Below, one piece after another: positions 1-62,201 of a stretch of 64,000 nt of DNA; position 1 is the first letter of the stretch; each line of letters opens with the position of its first letter. Origin of the DNA: Pycnococcus provasolii (taxonomy: Eukaryota; Chlorophyta; Pseudoscourfieldiophyceae; Pseudoscourfieldiales; Pycnococcaceae); assembly GCA_938743325.2 (NCBI GenBank), contig OW568861.1:1364001-1428000 (forward strand), in the 5' to 3' direction. The notes under the pieces are model-generated. The model was not told the DNA's origin. It ran no database searches and was given only the letters and a program-made list of their open reading frames with translations. Both the position numbers and the translations under genes were made by a program.

Positions 1-3000
1 CTCAGTGAAGCCAGCCGCCAGACCGCCGCCCAGCGTGCACTCGACCCAGCCCGATGAGAGGAACACGCCCGCGTACTCCGTGCCGCCGATCGAGCATCGC
101 ACCGGCGACTCAGAGCTCACGCCCGTGCCATACACGCTCACTGTCGCACCGCCAGACGCTGACACGCGCGCGGGCGATGCGGCGAGCACGCGCACCGACG
201 ATGCAGATGCGTACGTGTACGCGTCCGACACCTGGTGCTGCACGCCCTGCGTCATCGAGAACGGAACCGCGTCCGAGCCGGACGACGGCACCGAGCACCA
301 CACCTGCTCCGCGCTCGTCCACTGCGAAGACACCGCCACCGCGCCGAAGCGACACGATGGCGGGTGCGACGCCGCGAACCCGGACCCAGACACCTCGACG
401 CGATCCGCGCCAGTCAGGCCGTCCGCGCCCTCGATCGCGGGATACGAGACCTCGTCAAGTGCCGTCAGAGGTGCGCGCCAGCCCTGCGTCGACGCTGACA
501 CGTACGCGCCAGATCCTGTCGACGAGACCGACGATGCGAGCGCGGATGACACAAACGTCACAGCAGACGACGAGGCGACACCGACCAGCAGATCGGAGCC
601 AGACAGCCATACCACAGTCTCTATGCCTGACACGACAGCGCGAGGATACGACGCCATCACGCGACCGGGTACGGCGTACGACACGGACCCGACGTGATCG
701 CCGTCCGCGAGCTGCAGCGATCGGAAACCACCAGACATCGCAGGAAGCGTGCACGTCGACGAGGACGATGCGCATGCCGCCTGCTCGACGCCGCCAACCA
801 CCAGCGACGTCGGACGCGGGCCAGATATCAGCGACACGACCACGGATCCGCCCGTCAGCGACGATAGCACGTCCGACGCAGAGTACGCCAACAAGCGCGA
901 CGAGGCCGTGTACTCGTACGATGTCCACGACGCGCCCACGCGCTGGGCGCCTACGCCAAGACTCACGCCCGATGAGGACGGAACGCGTGCAGGCGAAACG
1001 CACTCGTACACGCCCGACCCCGCGCGACGCGTCCACACCATCGAAGTCGTGCCGAACGAGCACTGCCATGCCGAAGGCAGACCGCCGGACGCAGACACCT
1101 CCACCGCCGTGCCGCCCGACTCTGACCCTGACGGCGGCGACGCGCCCGTCACAGACGCGCCGCCGTCGCCCGTCACCTCCAGACGAGCCATCGACGCAGA
1201 TGTCACCTCGCACCGCCAAAGCGACGAAGATGCCATCGACGACGTTGAGCCGCACAAGCCGCCGTCGAACATGTGCGCGCCTATCATGTCCACCAACGAG
1301 CCGCCCGTAGACAACACCACTGATGGATGCACAACAGACACAGAAGCTGAGTCCGATACGTCCACGAGCGCGCGAGGTCCAAGCACGCGCACTGAGCCGC
1401 CGCTCACGCGCAGCCACTGCTCCGCCGACGCGCCCATCGTCAGCCGGCCGCCCGATACCAGACCCACCTCAGTGAAGCCAGCCGCCAGACCGCCGCCCAG
1501 CGTGCACTCGACCCAGCCCGATGAGAGGAACACGCCCGCGTACTCCGCGCCGCCGATCGAGCATCGCACCGGCGACTCAGAGCTCACGCCCGTGCCGTAC
1601 ACGCTCACTGTCGCGCCGCCAGACGCTGACACGCGCGCGGGCGATGCGGCGAGCACGCGCACCGACGATGCAGATGCGTACGTGTACGCGTCCGACACCT
1701 GGTGCTGCACGCCCTGCGTCATCGAGAACGGAACCGCGTCCGAGCCGGACGACGGCACCGAGCACCACACCTGCTCCGCGCTCGTCCACTGCGAAGACAC
1801 CGCCACCGCGCCGAAGCGACACGATGGCGGGTGCGACGCCGCGAACCCGGACCCAGACACCTCGACGCGATCCGCGCCAGTCAGACCCGTCACTGACTGC
1901 ACGCCAGCCGACGCAAGCTCGTCCGGCGCGATCGAAGATACGCGCCAGCCCTGCGTCGACGCTGACACGTACGCGCCAGATCCTGTCGACGAGACCGACG
2001 ATGCGAGCGCGGATGACACAAACGTCACAGCAGACGACGAGGCGACACCGACCAGCAGATCGGAGCCAGACAGCCATACCACAGTCTCTATGCCTGACAC
2101 GACAGCGCGAGGATACGACGCCGTCACGCGACCGGGTACGGCGTACGACACGGACCCGACGTGATCGCCGTCCGCGAGCTGCAGCGATCGGAAGCCAGCA
2201 GACATCGCAGGAAGCGTGCACGTCGACGAGGACGATGCGCATGCCGCCTGCTCGACGCCGCCAACCACCAGCGACGTCGGACGCGGGCCAGATATCAGCG
2301 ACACGACCACGGATCCGCCCGTCAGCGACGATAGCACGCCCGACGCAGAGTACGCCAACAAGCGCGACGAGGCCGTGTACTCGTACGATGTCCACGACGC
2401 GCCCACGCGCTGGGCGCCTACGCCAAGACTCACGCCCGACGAGGACGGAACGCGTGCAGGCGAAACGCACTCGTACACGCCCGACCCCGCGCGACGCGTC
2501 CACACCATCGAAGTCGTGCCGAACGAGCACTGCCATGCCGAAGGCAGACCGCCGGACGCAGACACCTCCACCGCCGTGCCGCCCGACTCTGACCCTGACG
2601 GCGGCGACGCGCCCGTCACAGACGCGCCGCCGTCGCCCGTCACCTCCAGACGAGCCATCGACGCAGATGTCACCTCGCACCGCCAAAGCGACGAAGATGC
2701 CATCGACGACGTTGAGCCGCACAAGCCGCCGTCGAACATGTGCGCGCCTATCACGTCCACCAACGAGCCGCCCGTAGACAACACCACTGACGGATGCACA
2801 ACAGACACAGAAGCTGAGTCCGATACGTCCACGAGCGCGCGAGGACCCAGCACGCGCACCGAGCCGCCGCTCACGCGCAGCCACTGCTCCGCCGACGCGC
2901 CCATCGTCAGCCGGCCGCCCGATACCAGACCCACCTCAGTGAAGCCAGCCGCCAGACCGCCGCCCAGCGTGCACTCGACCCAGCCCGATGAAAGGAACAC

Positions 3001-6000
3001 GCCCGCGTACTCCGCGCCGCCGATCGAGCATCGCACCGGCGACTCAGAGCTCACGCCCGTGCCGTACACGCTCACTGTCGCACCGCCAGACGCTGACACG
3101 CGCGCGGGCGATGCGGCGAGCACGCGCACCGACGATGCAGATGCGTACGTGTACGCGTCCGACACCTGGTGCTGCACGCCCTGCGTCATCGAGAACGGAA
3201 CCGCGTCCGAGCCGGACGACGGCACCGAGCACCACACCTGCTCCGCGCTCGTCCACTGCGAAGACACCGCCACCGCGCCGAAGCGACACGATGGCGGGTG
3301 CGACGCCGCGAACCCGGACCCAGACACCTCGACGCGATCCGCGCCAGTCAGACCCGTCACTGACTCCACGCCAGCCGACGCAAGCTCGTCCGGCGCGATC
3401 GAAGATACGCGCCAGCCCTGCGTCGACGCTGACACGTACGCGCCAGATCCTGTCGACGAGACCGACGATGCGAGCGCGGATGATACAAACGTCACAGCAG
3501 ACGACGAGGCGACACCGACCAGCAGATCGGAGCCAGACAGCCATACCACAGTCTCTATGCCTGACACGACAGCGCGAGGATACGACGCCGTCACGCGACC
3601 GGGTACGGCGTACGACACTGACCCGACGTGATCGCCGTCCGCGAGCTGCAGCGATCGGAAACCAGCAGACATCGCAGGAAGCGTGCACGTCGACGAGGAC
3701 GATGCGCATGCCGCCTGCTCGACGCCGCCAACCACCAGCGACGTCGGACGCGGGCCCGATATCAGCGACACGACCACGGATCCGCCCGTCAGCGACGATA
3801 GCACGCCCGACGCAGAGTACGCCAACAAGCGCGACGAGGCCGTGTACTCGTACGATGTCCACGACGCGCCCACGCGCTGGGCGCCTACGCCCAGACTCAC
3901 GCCCGACGAGGACGGAACGCGTGCAGGCGAAACGCACTCGTACACGCCCGACCCCGCGCGACGCGTCCACACCATCGAAGTCGTGCCGAACGAGCACTGC
4001 CACGCCGAAGGCAGACCGCCGGACGCAGACACCTCCACCGCCGTGCCGCCCGACTCTGACCCTGACGGCGGCGACGCGCCCGTCACAGACGCGCCGCCGT
4101 CGCCCGTCACCTCCAGACGAGCCATCGACGCAGATGTCACCTCGCACCGCCAAAGCGACGAAGATGCCATCGACGACGTTGAGCCGCACAAGCCGCCGTC
4201 GAACATGTGCGCGCCTATCATGTCCACCAACGAGCCGCCCGTAGACAACACCACTGATGGATGCACAACAGACACAGAAGCTGAGTCCGATACGTCCACG
4301 AGCGCGCGAGGACCCAGCACGCGCACTGAGCCGCCGCTCACGCGCAGCCACTGCTCCGCCGACGCGCCCATCGTCAGCCGGCCGCCCGATACCAGACCCA
4401 CCTCAGTGAAGCCAGCCGCCAGACCGCCGCCCAGCGTGCACTCGACCCAGCCCGATGAAAGGAACACGCCCGCGTACTCCGTGCCGCCGATCGAGCATCG
4501 CACCGGCGACTCAGAGCTCACGCCCGTGCCGTACACGCTCACTGTCGCGCCGCCAGACGCTGACACGCGCGCGGGCGATGCGGCGAGCACGCGCACCGAC
4601 GATGCAGATGCGTACGTGTACGCGTCCGACACCTGGTGCTGCACGCCCTGCGTCATCGAGAACGGAACCGCGTCCGAGCCGGACGACGGCACCGAGCACC
4701 ACACCTGCTCCGCGCTCGTCCACTGCGAAGACACCGCCACCGCGCCGAAGCGACACGATGGCGGGTGCGACGCCGCGAACCCGGACCCAGACACCTCGAC
4801 GCGATCCGCGCCAGTCAGACCGTCCGCGCCCTCGATCGCGGGATACGAGACCTCGTCAAGTGCCGTCAGAGGTGCGCGCCAGCCCTGCGTCGACGCTGAC
4901 ACGTACGCGCCAGATCCTGTCGACGAGACCGACGATGCGAGCGCGGATGACACAAACGTCACAGCAGACGACGAGGCGACACCGACCAGCAGATCGGAGC
5001 CAGACAGCCATACCACAGTCTCTATGCCTGACACGACAGCGCGAGGATACGACGCCGTCACGCGACCGGGTACGGCGTACGACACGGACCCGACGTGATC
5101 GCCGTCCGCGAGCTGCAGCGATCGGAAACCAGCAGACATCGCAGGAAGCGTGCACGTCGACGAGGACGATGCGCATGCCGCCTGCTCGACGCCGCCAACC
5201 ACCAGCGACGTCGGACGCGGGCCAGATATCAGCGACACGACCACGGATCCGCCCGTCAGCGACGATAGCACGTCCGACGCAGAGTACGCCAACAAGCGCG
5301 ACGAGGCCGTGTACTCGTACGACGTCCACGACGCGCCCACGCGCTGGGCGCCTACGCCAAGACTCACGCCCGATGAGGACGGAACGCGTGCAGGCGAAAC
5401 GCACTCGTACACGCCCGACCCCGCGCGACGCGTCCCCACCATCGAAGTCGTGCCGAACGAGCACTGCCACGCCGAAGGCAGACCGCTGGATGCAGACACC
5501 TCCACCGCCGTGCCGCCCGACTCTGACCCTGACGGCGGCGACGCGCCTGTCACAGACGCGCCGCCGTCGCCCGTCACCTCCAGACGAGCCATCGACGCAG
5601 ATGTCACCTCGCACCGCCAAAGCGACGAAGATGCCATCGAAGACGTTGAGCCGCACAAGCCGCCGTCGAACATGTGCGCGCCTATCACGTCCACCAACGA
5701 GCCGCCCGTAGACAACACCACTGATGGATGCACAACAGACACAGAAGCTGAGTCCGATACGTCCACGAGCGCGCGAGGACCCAGCACGCGCACCGAGCCG
5801 CCGCTCACGCGCAGCCACTGCTCCGCCGACGCGCCCATCGTCAGCCGGCCGCCCGATACCAGACCCACCTCAGTGAAGCCAGCCGCCAGACCGCCGCCCA
5901 GCGTGCACTCGACCCAGCCCGATGAAAGGAACACGCCCGCGTACTCCGTGCCGCCGATCGAGCATCGCACCAGCGACTCAGAGCTCACGCCCGTGCCGTA

Positions 6001-9000
6001 CACGCTCACTGTCGCGCCGCCAGACGTCGACACGCGCGCGGGCGATGCGGCGAGCACGCGCACCGACGATGCAGATGCGTACGTGTACGCGTCCGACACC
6101 TGGTGCTGCACGCCCTGCGTCATCGAGAACGGAACCGCGTCCGAGCCGGACGACGGCACCGAGCACCACACCTGCTCCGCGCTCGTCCACTGCGAAGACA
6201 CCGCCACCGCGCCGAAGCGACACGATGGCGGGTGCGACGCCGCGAACCCGGACCCAGACACCTCGACGCGATCCGCGCCAGTCAGGCCGTCCGCACCCTC
6301 GATTGCGGGATACGAGACCTCGTCAAGTGCCGTCAGAGGTGTGCGCCAGCCCTGCGTCGACGCTGACACGTACGCGCCAGATCCTGTCGACGAGACCGAC
6401 GATGCGAGCGCGGATGACACAAACGTCACAGCAGACGACGAGGCGACACCGACCAGCAGATCGGAGCCAGACAGCCATACCACAGTCTCTATGCCTGACA
6501 CGACAGCGCGAGGATACGACGCCGTCACGCGACCGGGTACGGCGTACGACACTGACCCGACGTGATCGCCGTCCGCGAGCTGCAGCGATCGGAAACCAGC
6601 AGACATCGCAGGAAGCGTGCACGTCGACGAGGACGATGCGCATGCCGCCTGCTCGACGCCGCCAACCACCAGCGACGTCGGACGCGGGCCAGATATCAGC
6701 GACATGACCACGGATCCGCCCGTCAGCGACGATAGCACGCCCGACGCAGAGTACGCCAACAAGCGCGACGAGGCCGTGTACCCGTACGATGTCCACGACG
6801 CGCCCACGCGCTGGGCGCCTACGCCCAGACTCACGCCCGATGAGGACGGAACGCGTGCAGGCGAAACGCACTCGTACACGCCCGACCCCGCGCGACGCGT
6901 CCACACCATCGAAGTCGTGCCGAACGAGCACTGCCACGCCGAAGGCAGACCGCCGGATGCAGACACCTCCACCGCCGTGCCGCCCGACTCTGACCCTGAC
7001 GGCGGCGACGCGCCCGTCACAGACGCGCCGCCGTCGCCCGTCACCTCCAGACGAGCCATCGACGCAGATGTCACCTCACACCGCCAAAGCGACGAAGATG
7101 CCATCGACGACGTTGAGCCGCACAAGCCGCCGTCGAACATGTGCGCGCCTGTCACGTCCACCAACGAGCCGCCCGTAGACAATACCACTGATGGATGCAC
7201 AACAGACACAGAAGCTGAGTCCGATACGTCCACGAGCGCGCGAGGACCCAGCACGCGCACCGAGCCGCCGCTCACGCGCAGCCACTGCTCCGCCGACGCG
7301 CCCATCGTCAGCCGGCCGCCCGATACCAGACCCACCTCAGTGAAGCCAGCCGCCAGACCGCCGCCCAGCGTGCACTCGACCCAGCCCGATGAGAGGAACA
7401 CGCCCGCGTACTCCGCGCCGCCGATCGAGCATCGCACCGGCGACTCAGAGCTCACGCCCGTGCCGTACACGCTCACTGTCGCGCCGCCAGACGCTGACAC
7501 GCGCGCGGGCGATGCGGCGAGCACGCGCACCGACGATGCAGATGCGTACGTGTACGCGTCCGACACCTGGTGCTGCACGCCCTGCGTCATCGAGAACGGA
7601 ACCGCGTCCGAGCCGGACGACGGCACCGAGCACCACACCTGCTCCGCGCTCGTCCACTGCGAAGACACCGCCACCGCGCCGAAGCGACACGATGGCGGGT
7701 GCGACGCCGCGAACCCGGACCCAGACACCTCGACGCGATCCGCGCCAGTCAGACCCGTCACTGACTCCACGCCAGCCGACGCAAGCTCGTCCGGCGCGAT
7801 CGAAGATACGCGCCAGCCCTGCGTCGACGCTGACACGTACGCGCCAGATCCTGTCGACGAGACCGACGATGCGAGCGCGGATGACACAAACGTCACAGCA
7901 GACGACGAGGCGACACCGACCAGCAGATCGGAGCCAGACAGCCATACCACAGTCTCTATGCCTGACACGACAGCGCGAGGATACGACGCCGTCACGCGAC
8001 CGGGTACGGCGTACGACACTGACCCGACGTGATCGCCGTCCGCGAGCTGCAGCGATCGGAAGCCAGCAGACATCGCAGGAAGCGTGCACGTCGACGAGGA
8101 CGATGCGCATGCCGCCTGCTCGACGCCGCCAACCACCAGCGACGTCGGACGCGGGCCAGATATCAGCGACATGACCACGGATCCGCCCGTCAGCGACGAT
8201 AGCACGCCCGACGCAGAGTACGCCAACAAGCGCGACGAGGCCGTGTACCCGTACGATGTCCACGACGCGCCCACGCGCTGGGCGCCTACGCCCAGACTCA
8301 CGCCCGATGAGGACGGAACGCGTGCAGGCGAAACGCACTCGTACACGCCCGACCCCGCGCGACGCGTCCACACCATCGAAGTCGTGCCGAACGAGCACTG
8401 CCACGCCGAAGACAGACCGCCGGATGCAGACACCTCCACCGCCGTGCCGCCCGACTCTGACCCTGACGGCGGCGACGCGCCTGTCACAGACGCGCCGCCG
8501 TCGCCCGTCACCTCCAGACGAGCCATCGACGCAGATGTCACCTCGCACCGCCAAAGCGACGAAGATGCCATCGACGACGTTGAGCCGCACAAGCCGCCGT
8601 CGAACATGTGCGCGCCTATCACGTCCACCAACGAGCCGCCCGTAGACAATACCACTGATGGATGCACAACAGACACAGAAGCTGAGTCCGATACGTCCAC
8701 GAGCGCGCGAGGACCCAGCACGCGCACCGAGCCGCCGCTCACGCGCAGCCACTGCTCCGCCGACGCGCCCATCGTCAGCCGGCCGCCCGATACCAGACCC
8801 ACCTCAGTGAAGCCAGCCGCCAGACCGCCGCCCAGCGTGCACTCGACCCAGCCCGATGAAAGGAACACGCCCGCGTACTCCGTGCCGCCGATCGAGCATC
8901 GCACCGGCGACTCAGAGCTCACGCCCGTGCCGTACACGCTCACTGTCGCGCCGCCAGACGCTGACACGCGCGCGGGCGATGCGGCGAGCACGCGCACCGA

Positions 9001-12000
9001 CGATGCAGATGCGTACGTGTACGCGTCCGACACCTGGTGCTGCACACCCTGCGTCATCGAGAACGGAACCGCGTCCGAGCCGGACGACGGCACCGAGCAC
9101 CACACCTGCTCCGCGCTCGTCCACTGCGAAGACACCGCCACCGCGCCGAAGCGACACGATGGCGGGTGCGACGCCGCGAACCCGGACCCAGACACCTCGA
9201 CGCGATCCGCGCCAGTCAGACCGTCCGCGCCCTCGATCGCGGGATACGAGACCTCGTCAAGTGCCGTCAGAGGTGCGCGCCAGCCCTGCGTCGACGCTGA
9301 CACGTACGCGCCAAATCCTGTCGACGAGACCGACGATGCGAGCGCGGATGACACAAACGTCACAGCAGACGACGAGGCGACACCGACCAGCAGATCGGAG
9401 CCAGACAGCCATACCACAGTCTCTATGCCTGACACGACAGCGCGAGGATACGACGCCGTCACGCGACCGGGTACGGCGTACGACACTGACCCGACGTGAT
9501 CGCCGTCCGCGAGCTGCAGCGATCGGAAACCAGCAGACATCGCAGGAAGCGTGCACGTCGACGAGGACGATGCGCATGCCGCCTGCTCGACGCCGCCAAC
9601 CACCAGCGACGTCGGACGCGGGCCAGATATCAGCGACACGACCACGGATCCGCCCGTCAGCGACGATAGCACGCCCGACGCAGAGTACGCCAACAAGCGC
9701 GACGAGGCCGTGTACTCGTACGATGTCCACGACGCGCCCACGCGCTGGGCGCCTACGCCCAGACTCACGCCCGACGAGGACGGAACGCGTGCAGGCGAAA
9801 CGCACTCGTACACGCCCGACCCCGCGCGACGCGTCCACACCATCGAAGTCGTGCCGAACGAGCACTGCCACGCCGAAGGCAGACCGCCGGATGCAGACAC
9901 CTCCACCGCCGTGCCGCCCGACTCTGACCCTGACGGCGGCGACGCGCCCGTCACAGACGCGCCGCCGTCGCCCGTCACCTCCAGACGAGCCATCGACGCA
10001 GATGTCACCTCACACCGCCAAAGCGACGAAGATGCCATCGACGACGTTGAGCCGCACAAGCCGCCGTCGAACATGTGCGCGCCTATCACGTCCACCAACG
10101 AGCCGCCCGTAGACAACACCACTGATGGATGCACAACAGACACAGAAGCTGAGTCCGATACGTCCACGAGCGCGCGAGGACCCAGCACGCGCACCGAGCC
10201 GCCGCTCACGCGCAGCCACTGCTCCGCCGACGCGCCCATCGTCAGCCGGCCGCCCGATACCAGACCCACCTCAGTGAAGCCAGCCGCCAGACCGCCGCCC
10301 AGCGTGCACTCGACCCAGCCCGATGAAAGGAACACGCCCGCGTACTCCGTGCCGCCGATCGAGCATCGCACCGGCGACTCAGAGCTCACGCCCGTGCCGT
10401 ACACGCTCACTGTCGCGCCGCCAGACGCTGACACGCGCGCGGGCGATGCGGCGAGCACGCGCACCGACGATGCAGATGCGTACGTGTACGCGTCCGACAC
10501 CTGGTGCTGCACACCCTGCGTCATCGAGAACGGAACCGCGTCCGAGCCGGACGACGGCACCGAGCACCACACCTGCTCCGCGCTCGTCCACTGCGAAGAC
10601 ACCGCCACCGCGCCGAAGCGACACGATGGCGGGTGCGACGCCGCGAACCCGGACCCAGACACCTCGACGCGATCCGCGCCAGTCAGGCCGTCCGCGCCCT
10701 CGATCGCGGGATACGAGACCTCGTCAAGTGCCGTCAGAGGTGCGCGCCAGCCCTGCGTCGACGCTGACACGTACGCGCCAGATCCTGTCGACGAGACCGA
10801 CGATGCGAGCGCGGATGACACAAACGTCACAGCAGACGACGAGGCGACGCCGACCAGCAGATCGGAGCCAGACAGCCATACCACAGTCTCTATGCCTGAC
10901 ACGACAGCGCGAGGATACGACGCCGTCACGCGACCGGGTACGGCGTACGACACGGACCCGACGTGATCGCCGTCCGCGAGCTGCAGCGATCGGAAACCAG
11001 CAGACATCGCAGGAAGCGTGCACGTCGACGAGGACGATGCGCATGCCGCCTGCTCGACGCCGCCAACCACCAGCGACGTCGGACGCGGGCCAGATATCAG
11101 CGACACGACCACGGATCCGCCCGTCAGCGACGATAGCACGCCCGACGCAGAGTACGCCAACAAGCGCGACGAGGCCGTGTACTCGTACGATGTCCACGAC
11201 GCGCCCACGCGCTGGGCGCCTACGCCAAGACTCACGCCCGACGAGGACGGAACGCGTGCAGGCGAAACGCACTCGTACACGCCCGACCCCGCGCGACGCG
11301 TCCACACCATCGAAGTCGTGCCGAACGAGCACTGCCACGCCGAAGGCAGGCCGCCGGACGCAGACACCTCCACCGCCGTGCCGCCCGACTCTGACCCTGA
11401 CGGCGGCGACGCGCCCGTCACAGACGCGCCGCCGTCGCCCGTCACCTCCAGACGAGCCATCGACGCAGATGTCACCTCACACCGCCAAAGCGACGAAGAT
11501 GCCATCGACGACGTTGAGCCGCACAAGCCGCCGTCGAACATGTGCGCGCCTACCACGTCCACCAACGAGCCGCCCGTAGACAATACCACTGATGGATGCA
11601 CAACAGACACAGAAGCTGAGTCCGATACGTCCACGAGCGCGCGAGGACCCAGCACGCGCACCGAGCCGCCGCTCACGCGCAGCCACTGCTCCGCCGACGC
11701 GCCCATCGTCAGCCGGCCGCCCGATACCAGACCCACCTCAGTGAAGCCAGCCGCCAGACCGCCGCCCAGCGTGCACTCGACCCAGCCCGATGAGAGGAAC
11801 ACGCCCGCGTACTCCGCGCCGCCGATCGAGCATCGCACCGGCGACTCAGAGCTCACGCCCGTGCCGTACACGCTCACTGTCGCGCCGCCAGACGCTGACA
11901 CGCGCGCGGGCGATGCGGCGAGCACGCGCACCGACGATGCAGATGCGTACGTGTACGCGTCCGACACCTGGTGCTGCACGCCCTGCGTCATCGAGAACGG

Positions 12001-36000: not shown

Positions 36001-39000
36001 GCCAACCACCAGCGACGTCGGACGCGGGCCAGATATCAGCGACACGACCACGGATCCGCCCGTCAGCGACGATAGCACGCCCGACGCAGAGTACGCCAAC
36101 AAGCGTGACGAGGCCGTGTACTCGTACGATGTCCACGACGCGCCCACGCGCTGGGCGCCTACGCCAAGACTCACGCCCGATGAGGAAGGAACGCGTGCAG
36201 GCGAAACGCACTCGTACACGCCCGACCCCGCGCGACGCGTCCACACCATCGACGTCGTGCCGAACGAGCACTGCCACGCCGAAGACAGACCGCCGGACGC
36301 AGACACCTCCACCGCCGTGCCGCCCGACTCTGACCCTGACGGCGGCGACGCGCCCGTCACAGACGCGCCGCCGTCGCCCGTCACCTCCAGACGAGCCATC
36401 GACGCAGATGTCACCTCGCACCGCCAAAGCGACGAAGATGCCATCGACGACGTTGAGCCGCACAAGCCGCCGTCGAACATGTGCGCGCCTATCACGTCCA
36501 CCAACGAGCCGCCCGTAGACAATACCACTGAAGGATGCACAACAGACACAGAAGCTGAGTCCGATACGTCCACGAGCGCGCGAGGACCCAGCACGCGCAC
36601 CGAGCCGCCGCTCACGCGCAGCCACTGCTCCGCCGACGCGCCCATCGTCAGCCGGCCGCCCGATACCAGACCCACCTCAGTGAAGCCAGCCGCCAGACCG
36701 CCACCCAGCGTGCACTCGACCCAGCCCGATGAAAGGAACATGCCCGCGTACTCCGTGCCGCCGATCGAGCATCGCACCGGCGACTCAGAGCTCACGCCCG
36801 TGCCGTACACGCTCACTGTCGCGCCGCCAGACGTCGACACGCGCGCGGGCGATGCGGCGAGCACGCGCACCGACGATGCAGATGCGTAAGTGTACGCGTC
36901 CGACACCTGGTGCTGCACGCCCTGCGTCATCGAGAACGGAACCGCGTCCGAGCCGGACGACGGCACCGAGCACCACACCTGCTCCGCGCTCGTCCACTGC
37001 GAAGACACCGCCACCGCGCCGAAGCGACACGATGGCGGATGCGACGCCGCGAACCCGGACCCAGACACCTCGACGCGATCCGCGCCAGTCAGACCCGTCA
37101 CTGACTCCACGCCAGCCGACGCAAGCTCGTCAAGTGCCGTCAGAGGTGCGCGCCAGCCCTGCGTCGACGCTGACACGTACGCGCCAGATCCTGTCGACGA
37201 GACCGACGATGCGAGCGCGGATGACACAAACGTCACAGCAGACGACGAGGCGACACCGACCAGCAGATCGGAGCCAGACAGCCATACCACAGTCTCTATG
37301 CCTGACACGACAGCGCGAGGATACGACGCCGTCACGCGACCGGGTACGGCGTACGACACGGACCCGACGTGATCGCCGTCCGCGAGCTGCAGCGATCGGA
37401 AGCCAGCAGACATCGCAGGAAGCGTGCACGTCGACGAGGACGATGCGCATGCCGCCTGCTCGACGCCGCCAACCACCAGCGACGTCGGACGCGGGCCAGA
37501 TATCAGCGACACGACCACGGATCCGCCCGTCAGCGAAGATAGCACGCCCGACGCAGAGTACGCCAACAAGCGCGACGAGGCCGTGTACTCGTACGATGTC
37601 CACGACGCGCCCACGCGCTGGGCGCCTACGCCAAGACTCACGCCCGACGAGGACGGAGCGCGTGCAGGCGAAACGCACTCGTACACGCCCGACCCCGCGC
37701 GACGCGTCCACACCATCGAAGTCGTGCCGAACGAGCACTGCCACGCCGAAGACAGACCGCCGGACGCAGACACCTCCACCGCCGTGCCGCCCGACTCTGA
37801 CCCTGACGGCGGCGACGCGCTCGTCACAGACGCGCCGCCGTCGCCCGTCACCTCCAGACGAGCCATCGACGCAGATGTCACCTCGCACCGCCAAAGCGAC
37901 GAAGATGCCATCGACGACGTTGAGCCGCACAAGCCGCCGTCGAACATGTGCGCGCCTATCACGTCCACCAACGAGCCGCCCGTAGACAACACCACTGACG
38001 GATGCACAACAGACACAGAAGCTGAGTCCGATACGTCCACGAGCGCGCGAGGACCCAGCACGCGCACCGAGCCGCCGCTCACGCGCAGCCATTGCTCCGC
38101 CGACGCGCCCATCGTCAGCCGGCCGCCCGATACCAGACCCACCTCAGTGAAGCCAGCCGCCAGACCGCCGCCCAGCGTGCACTCGACCCAGCCCGATGAG
38201 AGGAACACGCCCGCGTACTCCGTGCCGCCGATCGAGCATCGCACCGGCGACTCAGAGCTCACGCCCGTGCCGTACACGCTCACTGTCGCGCCGCCAGACG
38301 CTGACACGCGCGCGGGCGATGCGGCGAGCACGCGCACCGACGATGCAGATGCGTACGTGTACGCGTCCGACACCTGGTGCTGCACGCCCTGCGTCATCGA
38401 GAACGGAACCGCGTCCGAGCCGGACGACGGCACCGAGCACCACACCTGCTCCGCGCTCGTCCACTGCGAAGACACCGCCACCGCGCCGAAGCGACACGAT
38501 GGCGGATGCGACGCCGCGAACCCGGACCCAGACACCTCGACGCGATCCGCGCCAGTCAGACCCGTCACTGACTCCACGCCAGCCGACGCAAGCTCGTCAA
38601 GTGCCGTCAGAGGTGCGCGCCAGCCCTGCGTCGACGCCGACACGTACGCGCCAGATCCTGTCGACGAGACCGACGATGCGAGCGCGGATGATACAAACGT
38701 CACAGCAGACGACGAGGCGACGCCGACCAGCAGATCGGAGCCAGACAGCCATACCACAGTCTCTATGCCTGACACGACAGCGCGAGGATACGACGCCGTC
38801 ACGCGACCGGGTACGGCGTACGACACGGACCCGACGTGATCGCCGTCCGCGAGCTGCAGCGATCGGAAGCCAGCAGACATCGCAGGAAGCGTGCACGTCG
38901 ACGAGGACGATGCGCATGCCGCCTGCTCGACGCCGCCAACCACCAGCGACGTCGGACGCGGGCCAGATATCAGCGACACGACCACGGATCCGCCCGTCAG

Positions 39001-42000
39001 CGACGATAGCACGCCCGACGCAGAGTACGCCAACAAGCGCGACGAGGCCGTGTACTCGTACGATGTCCACGACGCGCCCACGCGCTGGGCGCCTACGCCA
39101 AGACTCACGCCCGATGAGGAAGGAACGCGTGCAGGCGAAACGCACTCGTACACGCCCGACCCCGCGCGACGCGTCCACACCATCGAAGTCGTGCCGAACG
39201 AGCACTGCCACGCCGAAGACAGACCGCCGGACGCAGACACCTCCACCGCCGTGCCGCCCGACTCTGACCCTGACGGCGGCGACGCGCCCGTCACAGACGC
39301 GCCGCCGTCGCCCGTCACCTCCAGACGAGCCATCGACGCAGATGTCACCTCGCACCGCCAAAGCGACGAAGATGCCATCGACGACGTTGAGCCGCATAAG
39401 CCGCCGTCGAACATGTGCGCACCTATCATGTCCACCAACGAGCCGCCCGTAGACAACACCACTGACGGATGCACAACAGACACAGAAGCTGAGTCCGATA
39501 CGTCCACGAGCGCGCGAGGACCCAGCACGCGCACCGAGCCGCCGCTCACGCGCAGCCATTGCTCCGCCGACGCGCCCATCGTCAGCCGGCCGCCCGATAC
39601 CAGACCCACCTCAGTGAAGCCAGCCGCCAGACCGCCGCCCAGCGTGCACTCGACCCAGCCCGATGAGAGGAACACGCCCGCGTACTCCGTGCCGCCGATC
39701 GAGCATCGCACCGGCGACTCAGAGCTCACGCCCGTGCCGTACACGCTCACTGTCGCGCCGCCAGATGCTGACACGCGCGCGGGCGATGCGGCGAGCACGC
39801 GCACCGACGATGCAGATGCGTACGTGTACGCGTCCGACACCTGGTGCTGCACGCCCTGCGTCATCGAGAACGGAACCGCGTCCGAGCCGGACGACGGCAC
39901 CGAGCACCACACCTGCTCCGCGCTCGTCCACTGCGAAGACACCGCCACCGCGCCGAAGCGACACGATGGCGGATGCGACGCCGCGAACCCGGACCCAGAC
40001 ACCTCGACGCGATCCGCGCCAGTCAGACCGTCCGCGCCCTCGATCGCGGGATACGAGACCTCGTCAAGTGCCGTCAGAGGTGCGCGCCAGCCCTGCGTCG
40101 ACGCCGACACGTACGCGCCAGATCCTGTCGACGAGACCGACGATGCGAGCGCGGATGATACAAACGTCACAGCAGACGACGAGGCGACGCCGACCAGCAG
40201 ATCGGAGCCAGACAGCCATACCACAGTCTCTATGCCTGACACGACAGCGCGAGGATACGACGCCGTCACGCGACCGGGTACGGCGTACGACACTGACCCG
40301 ACGTGATCGCCGTCCGCGAGCTGCAGCGATCGGAAACCACCAGACATCGCAGGAAGCGTGCACGTCGACGAGGACGATGCGCATGCCGCCTGCTCGACGC
40401 CGCCAACCACCAGCGACGTCGGACGCGGGCCAGATATCAGCGACACGACCACGGATCCGCCCGTCAGCGACGATAGCACGCCCGACGCAGAGTACGCCAA
40501 CAAGCGCGACGAGGCCGTGTACTCGTACGATGTCCACGACGCGCCCACGCGCTGGGCGCCTACGCCAAGACTCACGCCCGACGAGGACGGAGCGCGTGCA
40601 GGCGAAACGCACTCGTACACGCCCGACCCCGCGCGACGCGTCCACACCATCGAAGTCGTGCCGAACGAGCACTGCCATGCCGAAGGCAGACCGCCGGACG
40701 CAGACACCTCCACCGCCGTGCCGCCCGACTCTGACCCTGACGGCGGCGACGCGCCCGTCACAGACGCACCGCCGTCGCCCGTCACCTCCAGACGAGCCAT
40801 CAACGCAGATGTCACCTCGCACCGCCAAAGCGACGAAGATGCCATCGACGACGTTGAGCCGCACAAGCCGCCGTCGAACATGTGCGCGCCTATCACGTCC
40901 ACCAACGAGCCGCCCGTAGACAACACCACTGACGGATGCACAACAGACACAGAAGCTGAGTCCGATACGTCCACGAGCGCGCGAGGACCCAGCACGCGCA
41001 CCGAGCCGCCGCTCACGCGCAGCCACTGCTCCGCCGACGCGCCCATCGTCAGCCGGCCGCCCGATACCAGACCCACCTCAGTGAAGCCAGCCGCCAGACC
41101 GCCGCCCAGCGTGCACTCGACCCAGCCCGATGAGAGGAACACGCCCGCGTACTCCGTGCCGCCGATCGAGCATCGCACCGGCGACTCAGAGCTCACGCCC
41201 GTGCCGTACACGCTCACTGTCGCGCCGCCAGACGCTGACACGCGCGCGGGCGATGCGGCGAGCACGCGCACCGACGATGCAGATGCGTACGTGTACGCGT
41301 CCGACACCTGGTGCTGCACGCCCTGCGTCATCGAGAACGGAACCGCGTCCGAGCCGGACGACGGCACCGAGCACCACACCTGCTCCGCGCTCGTCCACTG
41401 CGAAGACACCGCCACCGCGCCGAAGCGACACGATGGCGGATGCGACGCCGCGAACCCGGACCCAGACACCTCGACGCGATCCGCGCCAGTCAGACCCGTC
41501 ACTGACTCCACGCCAGCCGACGCAAGCTCGTCCGGCGCGATCGAAGATACGCGCCAGCCCTGCGTCGACGCCGACACGTACGCGCCAGATCCTGTCGACG
41601 AGACCGACGAGGCGAGCGCGGATGACACAAACGTCACAGCAGACGACGAGGCGACGCCGACCAGCAGATCGGAGCCAGACAGCCATACCACAGTCTCTAT
41701 GCCTGACACGACAGCGCGAGGATACGACGCCGTCACGCGACCGGGTACGGCGTACGACACGGACCCGACGTGATCGCCGTCCGCGAGCTGCAGCGATCGG
41801 AAACCACCAGACATCGCAGGAAGCGTGCACGTCGACGAGGACGATGCGCATGCCGCCTGCTCGACGCCGCCAACCACCAGCGACGTCGGACGCGGGCCAG
41901 ATATCAGCGACACGACCACGGATCCGCCCGTCAGCGACGATAGCACGCCCGACGCAGAGTACGCCAACAAGCGCGACGAGGCCGTGTACTCGTACGATGT

Positions 42001-45000
42001 CCACGACGCGCCCACGCACTGGGCGCCTACGCCAAGACTCACGCCCGACGAGGACGGAGCGCGTGCAGGCGAAACGCACTCGTACACGCCCGACCCCGCG
42101 CGACGCGTCCACACCATCGAAGTCGTGCCGAACGAGCACTGCCACGCCGAAGACAGACCGCCGGACGCAGACACCTCCACCGCCGTGCCGCCCGACTCTG
42201 ACCCTGACGGCGGCGACGCGCCCGTCACAGACGCGCCGCCGTCGCCCGTCACCTCCAGACGAGCCATCGACGCAGATGTCACCTCGCACCGCCAAAGCGA
42301 CGAAGATGCCATCGACGACGTTGAGCCGCACAAGCCGCCGTCGAACATGTGCGCGCCTATCACGTCCACCAACGAGCCGCCCGTAGACAACACCACTGAC
42401 GGATGCACAACAGACACAGAAGCTGAGTCCGATACGTCCACGAGCGCGCGAGGACCCAGCACGCGCACTGAGCCGCCGCTCACGCGCAGCCACTGCTCCG
42501 CCGACGCGCCCATCGTCAGCCGGCCGCCCGATACCAGACCCACCTCAGTGAAGCCAGCCGCCAGACCGCCGCCCAGCGTGCACTCGACCCAGCCCGATGA
42601 GAGGAACACGCCCGCGTACTCCGTGCCGCCGATCGAGCATCGCACCGGCGACTCAGAGCTCACGCCCGTGCCGTACACGCTCACTGTCGCGCCACCAGAC
42701 GCTGACACGCGCGCGGGCGATGCGGCGAGCACGCGCACCGACGATGCAGATGCGTACGTGTACGCGTCCGACACCTGGTGCTGCACGCCCTGCGTCATCG
42801 AGAACGGAACCGCGTCCGAGCCGGACGACGGCACCGAGCACCACACCTGCTCCGCGCTCGTCCACTGCGAAGACACCGCCACCGCGCCGAAGCGACACGA
42901 TGGCGGATGCGACGCCGCGAACCCGGACCCAGACACCTCGACGCGATCCGCGCCAGTCAGACCCGTCACTGACTCCACGCCAGCCGACGCAAGCTCGTCA
43001 AGTGCCGTCAGAGGTGCGCGCCAGCCCTGCGTCGACGCCGACACGTACGCGCCAGATCCTGTCGACGAGACCGACGATGCGAGCGCGGATGACACAAACG
43101 TCACAGCAGACGACGAGGCGACGCCGACCAGCAGATCGGAGCCAGACAGCCATACCACAGTCTCTATGCCTGACACGACAGCGCGAGGATACGACGCCGT
43201 CACGCGACCGGGTACGGCGTACGACACGGACCCGACGTGATCGCCGTCCGCGAGCTGCAGCGATCGGAAACCACCAGACATCGCAGGAAGCGTGCACGTC
43301 GACGAGGACGATGCGCATGCCGCCTGCTCGACGCCGCCAACCACCAGCGACGTCGGACGCGGGCCAGATATCAGCGACACGACCACGGATCCGCCCGTCA
43401 GCGACGATAGCACGCCCGACGCAGAGTACGCCAACAAGCGCGACGAGGCCGTGTACTCGTACGATGTCCACGACGCGCCCACGCGCTGGGCGCCTACGCC
43501 AAGACTCACGCCCGACGAGGACGGAGCGCGTGCAGGCGAAACGCACTCGTACACGCCCGACCCCGCGCGACGCGTCCACACCATCGAAGTCGTGCCGAAC
43601 GAGCACTGCCACGCCGAAGACAGACCGCCGGACGCAGACACCTCCACCGCCGTGCCGCCCGACTCTGACCCTGACGGCGGCGACGCGCCTGTCACAGACG
43701 CACCGCCGTCGCCCGTCACCTCCAGACGAGCCATCGACGCAGATGTCACCTCACACCGCCAAAGCGACGAAGATGCCATCGACGACGTTGAGCCGCACAA
43801 GCCGCCGTCGAGCATGTGCGCGCCTATCACGTCCACCAACGAGCCGCCCGTAGACAACACCACTGACGGATGCACAACAGACACAGAAGCTGAGTCCGAT
43901 ACGTCCACGAGCGCGCGAGGACCCAGCACGCGCACTGAGCCGCCGCTCACGCGCAGCCACTGCTCCGCCGACGCGCCCATCGTCAGCCGGCCGCCCGATA
44001 CCAGACCCACCTCAGTGAAGCCAGCCGCCAGACCGCCGCCCAGCGTGCACTCGACCCAGCCCGATGAGAGGAACACGCCCGCGTACTCCGCGCCGCCGAT
44101 CGAGCATCGCACCGGCGACTCAGAGCTCACGCCCGTGCCGTACACGCTCACTGTCGCGCCGCCAGACGTCGACACGCGCGCGGGCGATGCGGCGAGCACG
44201 CGCACCGACGATGCAGATGCGTACGTGTACGCGTCCGACACCTGGTGCTGCACGCCCTGCGTCATCGAGAACGGAACCGCGTCCGAGCCGGACGACGGCA
44301 CCGAGCACCACACCTGCTCCGCGCTCGTCCACTGCGAAGACACCGCCACCGCGCCGAAGCGACACGATGGCGGATGCGACGCCGCGAACCCGGACCCAGA
44401 CACCTCGACGCGATCCGCGCCAGTCAGACCGTCCGCGCCCTCGATCGCGGGATACGAGACCTCGTCAAGTGCCGTCAGAGGTGCGCGCCAGCCCTGCGTC
44501 GACGCTGACACGTACGCGCCAGATCCTGTCGACGAGACCGACGATGCGAGCGCGGATGACACAAACGTCACAGCAGACGACGAGGCGACGCCGACCAGCA
44601 GATCGGAGCCAGACAGCCATACCACAGTCTCTATGCCTGACACGACAGCGCGAGGATACGACGCCGTCACGCGACCGGGTACGGCGTACGACACGGACCC
44701 GACGTGATCGCCGTCCGCGAGCTGCAGCGATCGGAAGCCAGCAGACATCGCAGGAAGCGTGCACGTCGACGAGGACGATGCGCATGCCGCCTGCTCGACG
44801 CCGCCAACCACCAGCGACGTCGGACGCGGGCCAGATATCAGCGACACGACCACGGATCCGCCCGTCAGCGAAGATAGCACGCCCGACGCAGAGTACGCCA
44901 ACAAGCGCGACGAGGCCGTGTACTCGTACGATGTCCACGACGCGCCCACGCGCTGGGCGCCTACGCCCAGACTCACGCCCGACGAGGACGGAACGCGTGC

Positions 45001-47712
45001 AGGCGAAACGCACTCGTACACGCCCGACCCCGCGCGACGCGTCCACACCATCGAAGTCGTGCCGAACGAGCACTGCCACGCCGAAGACAGACCGCCGGAC
45101 GCAGACACCTCCACCGCCGTGCCGCCCGACTCTGACCCTGACGGCGGCGACGCGCCCGTCACAGACGCGCCGCCGTCGCCCGTCACCTCCAGACGAGCCA
45201 TCGACGCAGATGTCACCTCGCACCGCCAAAGCGACGAAGATGCCATCGACGACGTTGAGCCGCACAAGCCGCCGTCGAACATGTGCGCGCCTATCACGTC
45301 CACCAACGAGCCGCCCGTAGACAACACCACTGACGGATGCACAACAGACACAGAAGCTGAGTCCGATACGTCCACGAGCGCGCGAGGACCCAGCACGCGC
45401 ACCGAGCCGCCGCTCACGCGCAGCCACTGCTCCGCCGACGCGCCCATCGTCAGCCGGCCGCCCGATACCAGACCCACCTCAGTGAAGCCAGCCGCCAGAC
45501 CGCCGCCCAGCGTGCACTCGACCCAGCCCGATGAGAGGAACACGCCCGCGTACTCCGCGCCGCCGATCGAGCATCGCACCGGCGACTCAGAGCTCACGCC
45601 CGTGCCGTACACGCTCACTGTCGTGCCGCCAGACGCTGACACGCGCGCGGGCGATGCGGCGAGCACGCGCACCGACGATGCAGATGCGTACGTGTACGCG
45701 TCCGACACCTGGTGCTGCACGCCCTGCGTCATCGAGAACGGAACCGCGTCCGAGCCGGACGACGGCACCGAGCACCACACCTGCTCCGCGCTCGTCCACT
45801 GCGAAGACACCGCCACCGCGCCGAAGCGACACGATGGCGGGTGCGACGCCGCGAACCCGGACCCAGACACCTCGACGCGATCCGCGCCAGTCAGACCCGT
45901 CACTGACTCCACGCCAGCCGACGCAAGCTCGTCAAGTGCCGTCAGAGGTGCGCGCCAGCCCTGCGTCGACGCCGACACGTACGCGCCAGATCCTGTCGAC
46001 GAGACCGACGAGGCGAGCGCGGATGACATAAACGTCACAGCAGACGACGAGGCGACACCGACCAGCAGATCGGAGCCAGACAGCCATACCACAGTCTCTA
46101 TGCCTGACACGACAGCGCGAGGATACGACGCCGTCACGCGACCGGGTACGGCGTACGACACGGACCCGACGTGATCGCCGTCCGCGAGCTGCAGCGATCG
46201 GAAACCACCAGACATCGCAGGAAGCGTGCACGTCGACGAGGACGATGCGCATGCCGCCTGCTCGCCGCCGCCAACCACCAGCGACGTCGGACGCGGGCCA
46301 GATATCAGCGACACGACCACGGATCCGCCCGTCAGCGAAGATAGCACGCCCGACGCAGAGTACGCCAACAAGCGCGACGAGGCCGTGTACTCGTACGATG
46401 TCCACGACGCGCCCACGCGCTGGGCGCCTACGCCAAGACTCACGCCCGACGAGGACGGAGCGCGTGCAGGCGAAACGCACTCGTACACGCCCGACCCCGC
46501 GCGACGCGTCCACACCATCGAAGTCGTGCCGAACGAGCACTGCCACGCCGAAGACAGACCGCCGGACGCAGACACCTCCACCGCCGTGCCGCCCGACTCT
46601 GACCCTGACGGCGGCGACGCGCCCGTCACAGACGCACCGCCGTCGCCCGTCACCTCCAGACGAGCCATCAACGCAGATGTCACCTCGCACCGCCAAAGCG
46701 ACGAAGACGCCATCGACGACGTTGAGCCGCACAAGCCGCCGTCGAACATGTGCGCGCCTATCACGTCCACCAACGAGCCGCCCGTAGACAATACCACTGA
46801 CGGATGCACAACAGACACAGAAGCTGAGTCCGATACGTCCACGAGCGCGCGAGGACCCAGCACGCGCACTGAGCCGCCGCTCACGCGCAGCCACTGCTCC
46901 GCCGACGCGCCCATCGTCAGCCGGCCGCCCGATACCAGACCCACCTCAGTGAAGCCAGCCGCCAGACCGCCGCCCAGCGTGCACTCGACCCAGCCCGATG
47001 AGAGGAACACGCCCGCGTACTCCGCGCCGCCGATCGAGCATCGCACCGGCGACTCAGAGCTCACGCCCGTGCCGTACACGCTCACTGTCGCGCCGCCAGA
47101 CGCTGACACGCGCGCGGGCGATGCGGCGAGCACGCGCACCGACGATGCAGATGCGTACGTGTACGCGTCCGACACCTGGTGCTGCACGCCCTGCGTCATC
47201 GAGAACGGAACCGCGTCCGAGCCGGACGACGGCACCGAGCACCACACCTGCTCCGCGCTCGTCCACTGCGAAGACACCGCCACCGCGCCGAAGCGACACG
47301 ATGGCGGGTGCGACGCCGCGAACCCGGACCCAGACACCTCGACGCGATCCGCGCCAGTCAGGCCGTCCGCGCCCTCGATCGCGGGATACGAGACCTCGTC
47401 AAGTGCCGTCAGAGGTGCGCGCCAGCCCTGCGTCGAAGCCGACACGTACGCGCTAGATCCTGTCGACGAGACCGACGATGCGAGCGCGGATGACACAAAT
47501 GTCACAGCAGACGACGAGGCGACACCGACCAGCAGATCGGAGCCAGACAGCCATACCACAGTCTCTATGCCTGACACGACAGCGCGAGGATACGACGCCG
47601 TCACGCGACCGGGTACGGCGTACGACACGGACCCGACGTGATCGCCGTCCGCGAGCTGCAGCGATCGGAAACCACCAGACATCGCAGGAAGCGTGCACGT
47701 CGACGAGGAGGA
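1..47712 (-). repeat. Coding tandem array, 1,467-bp unit, about 32.5 copies in window
   Basis: Units recur at exactly 1,467 bp (position 1, 1468, 2935 and so on), with no insertion or deletion in any copy. The array is cut by the left window edge and ends on the right at about 47709-47714, where identity to the unit is lost. Copies differ by scattered single-base changes. The unit is 3 x 489, so the reading frame passes unchanged from copy to copy. Read on the minus strand in the frame whose codons begin (low coordinate) at 1, 4, 7 and so on, each unit gives five to six IPT/TIG-like modules of roughly 80-95 residues. Shared rare variants occur in distant copies, as expected from unequal exchange or gene conversion. 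Confidence 0.97.
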
Positions 47713-49066
47713 TGACGTTTCGCAGTTCGCTCTTTCTTTGGCGTGAATTAGAAGATTTCTAGCGTTGTTTTCGAAGATGAAAGTATTGGCAAGTACTGCG
47801 CCTGTCTCCGTTGATGCTTGAATGTTGTAATCAAATTGTTGTGCCACTTTTGACTCGATGCTCAACGGTGCGCTCTGTTTTGTTTGGAATTGCGCTCCTA
47901 GTCTTACGTGTACTCGTCTCTTGAATTGAGGTAGTGCTGGTGATATGCACTCGACTGTGTTTTGCAAATGCAAGGTGATTTGCCTTGCATGTACGTGTTG
48001 TATTGATCCAAAGCTGCATGCGATGTAAGACCCGGTGGAATCGTCGCGATCATGTGACGATGATAGTTGAAGCTGCATCGTTGCGCCTCCTTCTTCTGGG
48101 CTGTGCAGTGGTAAGTGGTTCTTAACCAGTTGCGGTTCGTCTGTAAAAGTGACTTTGCCGCTTCCCAAGCAATCTTCAGCATGGTAAAGAGTTTCTCCGG
48201 TACCAATCCATGGCTGCGTTTGGCTTGCGCACAATCGCGACGTCGTCTCCATGAAGTCAGGGCGCTCTAGTTCAACGCGCGAAATTGCAGAGGATATGAA
48301 GTTCGCACTTAATGCCCTTCTTGGTTGGTCCACGGAGTAAAAGTTGGTAGTTGGCCGGTTGTGAGTCATGGTGGTGACGACGAGCGCGCCCAGTCCATGT
48401 GTCCATACAACGCCCGTCGGGTGGACGCTGCGTATGACCGCCGGTTCCTGAAACTGGTATGCACCTCCGTCGATATAATCCAAGCCGTTCGATGTCAAGC
48501 TAACAGAGGCGAATCCGGCATCTCCCACAAGTGCGGGTGTGTTGCACACAACAGCCTGTGCGCTGAGCTCGAGAGCCGGTTGAGCCGGGCCGGCGTCGCC
48601 CCCGAAGTGGCAGCTCCAGTCGGCAAACGAGTCAAAGTGTTCCTATCAAGTTTGTCGTGTTGTGGTGTTGATTGAGTTTGTGAGTGTACTTGCAGACATT
48701 GGCGTGCATATTGCGCCCACTGCTTCTGGTGTGCAAGTCGTGCAAACTTACCCCGACCACGGTGACACCGTGCGACCCAACGGCAGCACCCGCGAGAGGC
48801 CAGATTTCGATATCTTCGTCTCCCCCCGTGGCGCGTGTCAGCGTCGCCAGTAGCGTCGCCAGCGTGAGCAGGCCGACTCTCGTGCGTCTCACGGTCGCGC
48901 TCACGCTAGCAGTGTCGCCTCGTCTTGCGCGCGCGTGTCCTGGCGCCTCCGCGGCGCAGGTATCGCCGACGGCGCCGACGTCTTCGTGTGGTCGTCTCCG
49001 TCGTGTTTTGTGCTTCGCCATCACGTGTATTTGCGCCCCCACCAGGTTATGTTCTTCTCCTGGCAT
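1..49066 (-). CDS. Giant secreted IPT/TIG-repeat protein (partial; C-terminus off left edge); join of 48752-49066 and 1-48642
   Basis: Exon 1 (48752-49066) starts at the first in-frame ATG, with a purine at -3; a second ATG lies at 49021. It ends in a hydrophobic stretch (VGLLTLATLLATLT) that looks like a signal segment after a long Arg-rich n-region. Exon 2 runs open from 48642 to base 1, 16,214 codons with no in-frame stop that I can find. Across the splice the protein reads VTVVG|EHFDSFADWSCHFGG, a continuous IPT/TIG-like strand pair. About 310 unique residues follow, with further C-x-FG ... VEC-SP motifs, then the 489-residue repeats. Each repeat has five Cys pairs, four of them closed by V/Y/W-x-C or W-R-C motifs, and motifs such as VSGSGF and SCRFG typical of IPT/TIG beta-sandwiches. 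The unit contains no Lys and no Asn and is rich in Ser, Val, Gly and Ala. A role as an extracellular adhesin, scale or matrix protein is inference. The off-window end decides whether it is anchored. Confidence 0.85.
418..473 (-). repeat. Variable 56-bp cassette of the repeat unit (first of 33 occurrences)
   Basis: At this place in every unit (418-473 plus multiples of 1,467) one of three versions is found. Type A encodes RAPLTALDEVSYPAIEG, type B RVSSIAPDELASAGVES, and type C is a hybrid, RAPLTALDELASAGVES. By eye there are 15 A, 13 B and 5 C among 33 units. Type C is confined to units at about 35.6, 37.1, 38.6, 43.0 and 45.9 kb, near the N-terminal end of the gene. A and B share the six bases ctcgtc at the point where C switches. 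Flanking sequence is nearly invariant, so this is a swapped block rather than drift. Confidence 0.9.
48643..48751 (-). other. Intron 1 of the giant repeat gene (109 nt, phase 0)
   Basis: The donor on the minus strand is GTAAGT at 48751-48746, directly after a GGG codon, and the acceptor is TAG ending at 48643. Removing it joins VTVVG to EHFDSF in frame and completes a recognisable IPT/TIG N-terminal half. The exon 2 frame has a stop just inside the intron (48643-48645) and the exon 1 frame runs on only into low-quality sequence. No strong TACTAAC-type branch site was seen. Confidence 0.8.
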
Positions 49067-61005: not shown

Positions 61006-61108
61006 GGATCTTGCTTGAGCAAGGCTTGATCCTGTTAGGGGTAGGAGGGGGCAGGGTGGTGTGTTGTATGTCAGCTCGACGTTCGTTGTTTTTGTCTCGG
61101 TTGCTCGT

Positions 61109-61172
61109 CTAACCCTAACCCGAACTCCTAACCCTAACCCTAACCCGAACTCCTAACCCTAACCCTAATCCG
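61109..61172. repeat. Interstitial telomere-like CCCTAA block
   Basis: The stretch consists of three blocks of CTAACCCTAACCC type, the first two separated from the next by a CGAACTC spacer, with about seven to eight TAACCC units in all (TTAGGG on the other strand). It lies about 104-167 bp upstream of the start of the minus-strand receptor-like gene. Genes continue on both sides, so it is not a chromosome end here. It may be a repaired break, or a telo-box-like promoter element as known in plants. Confidence 0.85.
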
Positions 61173-62151: not shown

Positions 62152-62201
62152 CTTGGTAGAAACAAGGGGAGATAACAAGATGTTATCTCCCCTTGGTAGA
62201 A
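62152..62201. repeat. 15-bp stem hairpin between two 10-bp direct repeats
   Basis: CAAGGGGAGATAACA (62163-62177) and its exact reverse complement (62181-62195) flank a 3-base loop. The ten bases CTTGGTAGAA occur at 62152-62161 and again at 62192-62201. The layout resembles a tiny insertion with a duplicated target, or a hairpin grown by replication slippage. It is too short to encode anything. Confidence 0.8.

Follow-up and report, generated by a model that had tools for sequence, protein, structure and literature searches.

The window analysed here, a stretch of 64,000 nucleotides from Pycnococcus provasolii (contig OW568861.1, positions 1,364,001 to 1,428,000), carries at its left end, up to position 49066, a tandem array that resembles satellite DNA and that very probably belongs to a single protein-coding gene for a chain of IPT/TIG-like modules. 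The gene is built on a minus-strand frame (codons at 1, 4, 7 and so on) that runs for 16,214 codons without a stop from position 48642 down to base 1; this is the longest open stretch of the window, the second longest having 2,206 codons (54535-61152). Together with a first exon of 105 codons, the frame gives a visible protein of 16,319 residues, a minimum with the C-terminus lying beyond the window; the 16,214 residues of exon 2 have a mass of 1,600.6 kDa. A 489-residue periodicity begins near plus coordinate 47712, and from there the array comprises 32 complete units and a partial unit of 259 residues. All 32 complete units are exactly 1,467 bp long and in register, with no change in length. 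A preliminary description of this DNA had proposed that the satellite-looking array hides one giant gene of more than 16,300 codons, in a frame open to the window edge and surrounded by misleading open frames on both strands. These points are borne out: 16,319 codons were counted, the misleading frames are recurring stretches of 488 codons on the plus strand and 452 codons on the minus strand, and the open frame, homology to TIG domains and purifying selection between units all argue for one gene. Its features are as follows.

48752..49066, minus strand: exon 1, 105 codons, with the ATG at 49066, a basic stretch, the hydrophobic segment VGLLTLATLLATL and the start of the first TIG module
48643..48751, minus strand: intron of 109 bp, GT...AG, phase 0; splicing completes the first TIG module
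47713..48642, minus strand: unique part of exon 2, with the remainder of module N1, a weak N2, N3 and the beginning of a further module whose rest lies in the array
Within 47713..48642, minus strand: N3, a TIG_plexin-like module, below the cut-off
1..47712, minus strand: array part of exon 2, 32 complete units and a partial unit, leaving the left window edge without a stop
44680..46146, minus strand: reference unit in module register
45916-46146, minus strand: M1 of the reference unit
45679-45915, minus strand: M2
45409-45678, minus strand: M3
45169-45408, minus strand: M4
44911-45168, minus strand: M5
44680-44910, minus strand: M6

Each unit consists of six modules of 77-90 residues that are 19-38% identical to one another, and the reference unit contains 10 cysteines spaced as five pairs, so that five of the six modules carry a pair. 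When the minus-strand frame was searched against PF01833, as had been proposed, the Pfam TIG family was matched above its curated cut-off (20.9 bits): two units gave E = 6.7e-30 and 103.4 bits over six stretches, and all four chunks of the frame were matched (E = 1.3e-101, 9.8e-101, 1.8e-100 and 2.6e-39), in which 15 + 16 + 13 + 6 = 50 stretches pass E <= 0.01. Single modules were tested with Pfam and with shuffles in one reference unit of the 32. M2, M3 and M5 each exceed the TIG cut-off on their own (26.2, 30.9 and 21.1 bits), and M1 matches Qn_am_d_aIII, which we take to be an Ig-like family (15.1 bits alone, 28.2 bits over two units; cut-off 22). Scored with a profile of four of the window's own modules (N1, M2, M3 and M5), with 200 shuffles made per module, M4, M6 and N3 outscore all of their own shuffles at low scores (10.8, 10.4 and 8.9 bits; best shuffles 7.4, 9.6 and 6.2 bits). 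A 15-row profile of the window's modules finds Plexin-A1 (E = 9.5e-9), Plexin-A2 (2.7e-5), the Met/HGF receptor (7.5e-4) and Plexin-A4 (0.0015), with a weak match to CAMTA1 (0.031); the matched stretches of the plexins and Met are presumably IPT domains. When two units were searched by sequence against PDB chains, the matches were weaker than those of the profile: Plexin-A1 (E = 0.015 and 0.25) and a ribosomal protein (E = 0.014), the latter probably due to chance. The Cys-paired IPT/TIG-like modules of the preliminary description are thus supported both by the Pfam TIG matches in all chunks and by the own-module profile that finds plexins and Met. By both approaches the array is homologous to the IPT/TIG family PF01833 (plexin, Met, CAMTA, EBF, fibrocystin). 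Known IPT/TIG proteins carry between one and roughly a dozen TIG domains; here, the period gives about 200 modules in near-identical six-module units, of which 192 belong to the complete units, about 3 to the partial one and a few to the N-terminal part.

The same domain type continues into the unique N-terminal part and across the intron, as had been suggested. On its own, the 86-residue start of exon 2 matches TIG only in part (profile positions 26-82) and, at 18.2 bits, stays below the cut-off of 20.9; adding the end of exon 1 raises the spliced N1 to 31.6 bits over profile positions 6-82. With an own-module profile made from the other modules, splicing lifts N1 from 10.0 to 16.9 bits, and when the exon-1 piece was shuffled, 1 of 500 shuffles was as good as the spliced N1. 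The completion of the first TIG module by the predicted exon-1/exon-2 join supports a splice at this place; the GT-AG intron (48751-48643) and exon 1 (ATG at 49066) were found as claimed. The hydropathy maximum of exon 1 is the stretch VGLLTLATLLATL. Because this segment begins at residue 64 from the first ATG, translation may in fact start elsewhere, or there may be another exon upstream.

An AlphaFold model of the single module M3 (15 rows) has seven strands, with moderate scores only (pLDDT 61.6, pTM 0.56). The first Foldseek match to this model is the TIG domain of CAMTA1 (probability 1.00, TM 0.54, E = 0.07), and the IPT/TIG domain of EBF3 is listed at rank 27. The fold match is support for a TIG fold, not proof of it.

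Homology and selection are stronger evidence for coding than frame length: the 16,214 codons represent a single 489-codon frame in many copies and do not count as independent trials. Of 3,000 dinucleotide shuffles made from a majority unit, 0.1% had a stop-free frame of any kind. The test of variants between units left out bases 300-360, which contain a variable cassette described below, and the 15 bases at the start of the unit. In the gene frame, 55 of 92 variants are synonymous, against 30.4 +/- 4.4 expected (0 of 2,000 random placements were as high), 37 are nonsynonymous, against 58.8 expected, and none creates a stop, against 2.8 expected (P = 0.047). The ratio of nonsynonymous to synonymous variation (pN/pS), computed with codons 0-5 and 100-120 left out, is 0.21 outside the cassette, and the modules other than M6 range from 0.06 (M2) to 0.32 (M3). 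Four open reading frames (ORFs) of other frames, two on the plus and two on the minus strand, match no Pfam family.

The units are 96.0-99.5% identical in DNA sequence, and their similarity falls little with distance: mean identity is 0.980 at lag 1 and 0.973-0.982 over lags 1 to 30, and the only pair at lag 31 has 0.962. Common variants are strongly linked within 60 bp (r2 = 0.68), where most pairs lie inside the cassette, and hardly at all beyond 60 bp (r2 = 0.02-0.05). This pattern suggests that the units are mosaics of common variants, as gene conversion with unequal exchange would give. The cassette occupies unit bases ~303-356, at the M1-M2 junction, and is highly divergent (pN/pS 0.79) in units that are otherwise ~98% identical. 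Each of its halves occurs in two versions; of the possible pairings, one is found in 14 of the 32 units, another in 13 and a recombinant in 5, the fourth combination being absent.

Tandem units this similar are known to be difficult to assemble, and an assembler that mixed copies could mimic the missing linkage; the gene would then be real, its copy number and mosaic pattern would be partly artefactual, and the true protein would be shorter or longer than the one described here. We regard such an effect as unlikely, because no two complete units (496 pairs) differ by fewer than 8 bases, 46 variants are unit-specific, and copies match exactly in register over 849 bp at most. The same differences show that the array did not come about by simple duplication during assembly.

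Lys and Asn are absent from all 32 complete units of the array, which for want of Asn also contain no N-glycosylation sequon, and the codons AAA, AAG, AAC, AAT, ATT, AGA, AGG and ACC are missing from the 15,907 array codons. Glu and Gln are encoded by GAG and CAG in 907 of 910 cases; a neighbouring gene of 2,157 codons uses GAA 59 times and GAG 58 times. The sense strand contains 37 AA dinucleotides in 47,721 bases (observed/expected 0.08), with ratios of 0.98 and 1.02 in two neighbouring genes. As a separate signal, avoidance of AA was rejected: permutation of synonymous codons in one unit gave 3.1 +/- 1.6 occurrences against 1 observed (P = 0.165), and the low AA content follows from codon and residue choice. 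The tested unit has a pI of 5.05, and Ser makes up 20% of the giant chain. AATAAA and TGTAA do not occur in the 47.7 kb of sense strand, and CTAAC and GTAAG are absent from the sense strand of the array, all array motif counts being those of one unit repeated 32 times. Judging from these sequences, the scarcity of AA may shield a transcript of more than 48 kb from premature polyadenylation. A further idea, shielding from cryptic splicing, is weakened by an excess on the sense strand of donor-like GTGAG (133 versus 62 expected) and branch-like CTGAC (116 versus 34).

With moderate confidence, we read the product as a secreted or surface-anchored, rod-like giant of about 200 IPT/TIG-type modules. 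The repeating unit, in which the six modules differ from one another and five carry a Cys pair, recurs at least 32.5 times, in a chain that would enter the secretory pathway, where the Cys pairs would form disulfides; such pairs would fit an oxidising setting. The modules would fold end to end into a rod on the order of 0.7-0.8 micrometres if straight, an estimate scaled to about 200 smaller modules from MpAFP, a bacterial protein secreted by the type I route. A head domain, formed by the N-terminal TIG modules or by the unseen C-terminal part, would be projected from the cell, and the rod, of titin length, would serve adhesion, much as the giant adhesins of bacteria do (MpAFP, Periscope proteins), or form an extracellular fibre. 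Unequal recombination would alter its length within a population, in the manner of the bacterial Periscope proteins. More tentatively, the protein could be a eukaryotic Periscope counterpart: a near-micrometre rod with an array free of Lys and Asn, a length tuned by recombination, units homogenised by gene conversion that at the same time shuffles variants lying more than about 60 bp apart, and alternative cassettes distributed along the rod as hinges.

Several results weigh against a secreted giant of TIG-type modules, or against parts of it. Constraint on the array is uneven, with pN/pS at 0.79 in the cassette and 0.80 over 41 measured codons of M6. The antisense frame that has the same third positions also shows a synonymous excess (45 versus 28.4), as would be expected from a register shared with the third positions of the gene; the consensus of this antisense frame has one stop per unit, and three variants add further stops. 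On their own, M4 and M6 have no Pfam match, no NCBIfam model scores above its cut-off, and the own-module profile recognises neither M1 (193 of 200 shuffles as good) nor N2 (180 of 197 scored shuffles as good). In the reference unit, TIG identity is thus supported for M2, M3 and M5 by Pfam and for M4 and M6 by the weak own-module scores, but not for M1. Modelled from 32 near-identical rows, the whole 489-residue unit reaches an AlphaFold pLDDT of only 35.1, too low for a usable model. No Foldseek match of the moderate M3 model reaches E = 0.001, and F1-ATPases and other unrelated chains are listed too. Of the signal segment proposed in exon 1, the hydrophobic stretch is present; it is short and lies far from the ATG. 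No anchor is visible, because the C-terminus lies outside the window, and the TIG proteins also include intracellular ones, CAMTA and EBF among them.

An intracellular or ciliary structural ruler, titin-like, in place of an extracellular rod would accommodate a length near micrometres, and the Ig-like super-repeats recall those of titin. We consider it distinctly unlikely in view of the Cys pairs in five of six modules, the hydrophobic N-terminal segment and the best sequence matches, which are to the receptor proteins Plexin-A1 and Met; these matches are known ectodomains. Cleavage once per unit into many six-module proteins would be compatible with near-identical units of constant length, and a search by eye for cleavage motifs found a single RR pair, within TRRAG, in the consensus of the unit. 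However, by eye this pair lies between the two cysteines of M5, inside a domain and not in a linker, and the lack of Lys leaves no KR or KK sites; a polyprotein is accordingly quite improbable. Least probable by far is that the array is no gene but a satellite, GC-rich and of 1,467 bp, in which a frame is open by chance: the near-identity of units at all distances and the several long frames that lie open in each unit, on both strands, would suit this reading, but the TIG homology is confined to the gene frame among those searched, the same domain type occurs in unique exon 2 and across the splice in exon 1, a stop-free frame is rare in shuffles, the period is divisible by three, and the synonymous excess, the pN/pS of 0.21, the lack of stop-creating variants and the constant unit length are those of DNA under coding constraint.

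A secreted rod of this kind has parallels among bacteria. MpAFP is likewise one long chain, of ~120 Ig-like domains identical at the DNA level and proposed to form a rod; four tandem repeats span ~19 nm, and 120 repeats are proposed to reach 0.6 micrometres (PMC4083281). Unlike the present protein, it is bacterial, has a single 104-residue repeat and is stabilised by calcium (PMC4083281), whereas the giant gene is predicted to be spliced and encodes six different modules per unit, with cysteine pairs. Periscope proteins are bacterial single-chain surface stalks with highly identical tandem domains, including E-set Ig-like domains (PMC9704523). High identity of tandem domains at the coding level is also found here, in the units; the class is described for bacteria, whereas the giant gene appears to be spliced, so the class does not apply as such. 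According to the same review, neighbouring repeats of mammalian proteins are 30-40% identical, and very similar neighbours risk misfolding (PMC9704523). Unlike in Periscope proteins, adjacent modules here are only 19-38% identical, and like modules recur at every sixth position.

Among algal proteins, a survey of plants and green algae gives polyketide synthases of 22,244 residues in Volvox and 21,004 in Chlamydomonas, further polyketide synthases of 18,193 and 16,440, and unknown proteins of 18,533 and, in Bathycoccus, 16,310 residues (PMC6681478). The giant gene falls in the same size class; most of the largest entries are polyketide synthases, several are given as 'unknown', and no IPT/TIG protein is named in the part of the list that gives these lengths. 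The visible 16,319 residues rank sixth among those proteins and set no record; 'one of the larger proteins of any alga', as the preliminary description had it, is fair as a floor for an algal host. The Chlamydomonas mastigoneme protein MST1 has nine Ig-like domains arranged mostly head to tail (PMC11015965). Like the protein proposed here, it is a chain of Ig-like domains in an extracellular filament, and AlphaFold2 missed most of its domains; unlike it, MST1 has cysteine-rich and poly-proline regions and is N-glycosylated (PMC11015965), whereas the array has no Asn. An expression study of a flagellate classed IPT-domain genes under cell adhesion (PMC7852580), and four genes with TIG domains were upregulated in a dinoflagellate exposed to nanoplastics (PMC7695302).

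The rest of the window contains neighbouring genes and short repeats. Head-to-head with the giant gene, two plus-strand ORFs of 802 and 641 codons (49910-54203) resemble, by eye, the two parts of a single gene with a short intron near 52261-52354 and have an SGNH-hydrolase-like look; neither has a Pfam match. Between this neighbour and the giant gene lies a 13-bp repeat, CTTTTCCATGGAC, in nearly four copies (49824-49873). On the minus strand, the 2,157-codon ORF at 54535-61005 has two LNR/Notch stretches, seven TSP1_ADAMTS stretches (thrombospondin type 1) and a C-terminal SAM-like match just below the Pfam cut-off (21.4 versus 23 bits); a 171-bp tandem repeat of four copies with 88% matches (55812-56490) lies on its TSP1 part, and short interstitial telomere-like CTAACC repeats lie upstream (61109-61172). 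An intergenic inverted repeat at 62163-62195 has 14-bp arms around GGGGAGATAACAAGATGTTATCTCCCC (by eye). The plus-strand ORF at 63149-63955, which is probably spliced, begins with a SAM domain (SAM_TNK, 39.6 bits); by eye, the part behind it is Cys-rich and PLAC8-like. The LNR, TSP1 and SAM-type neighbours and the intron of the giant gene point to a eukaryotic host. The window yielded neither a tRNA nor an Rfam match at the gathering score.

Among the papers listed in searches of the open-licence literature, none dealt with a giant IPT/TIG repeat protein of an alga or protist, which is weak evidence of novelty. Searches with short peptide patterns, which reach close relatives only, found no relative of the unit, the unique N-terminus or two neighbouring proteins in viral contigs, and none of the N-terminus and first part of the array in prokaryotic genome contigs. 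New features of the locus are the six-module super-repeat, the array free of Lys and Asn, the AA-poor sense strand, the near absence of linkage beyond 60 bp and the cassette at a module junction. Genes of this type are easily masked as repeats, broken by assemblers or skipped by annotators, and microbial eukaryotes may have many giant surface proteins that go unnoticed. The arrangement of six divergent modules, which keeps like modules apart while the unit as a whole is homogenised, is a design rule that can be tested. Should strains differ in repeat number, a surface strategy of bacteria would extend to eukaryotes.

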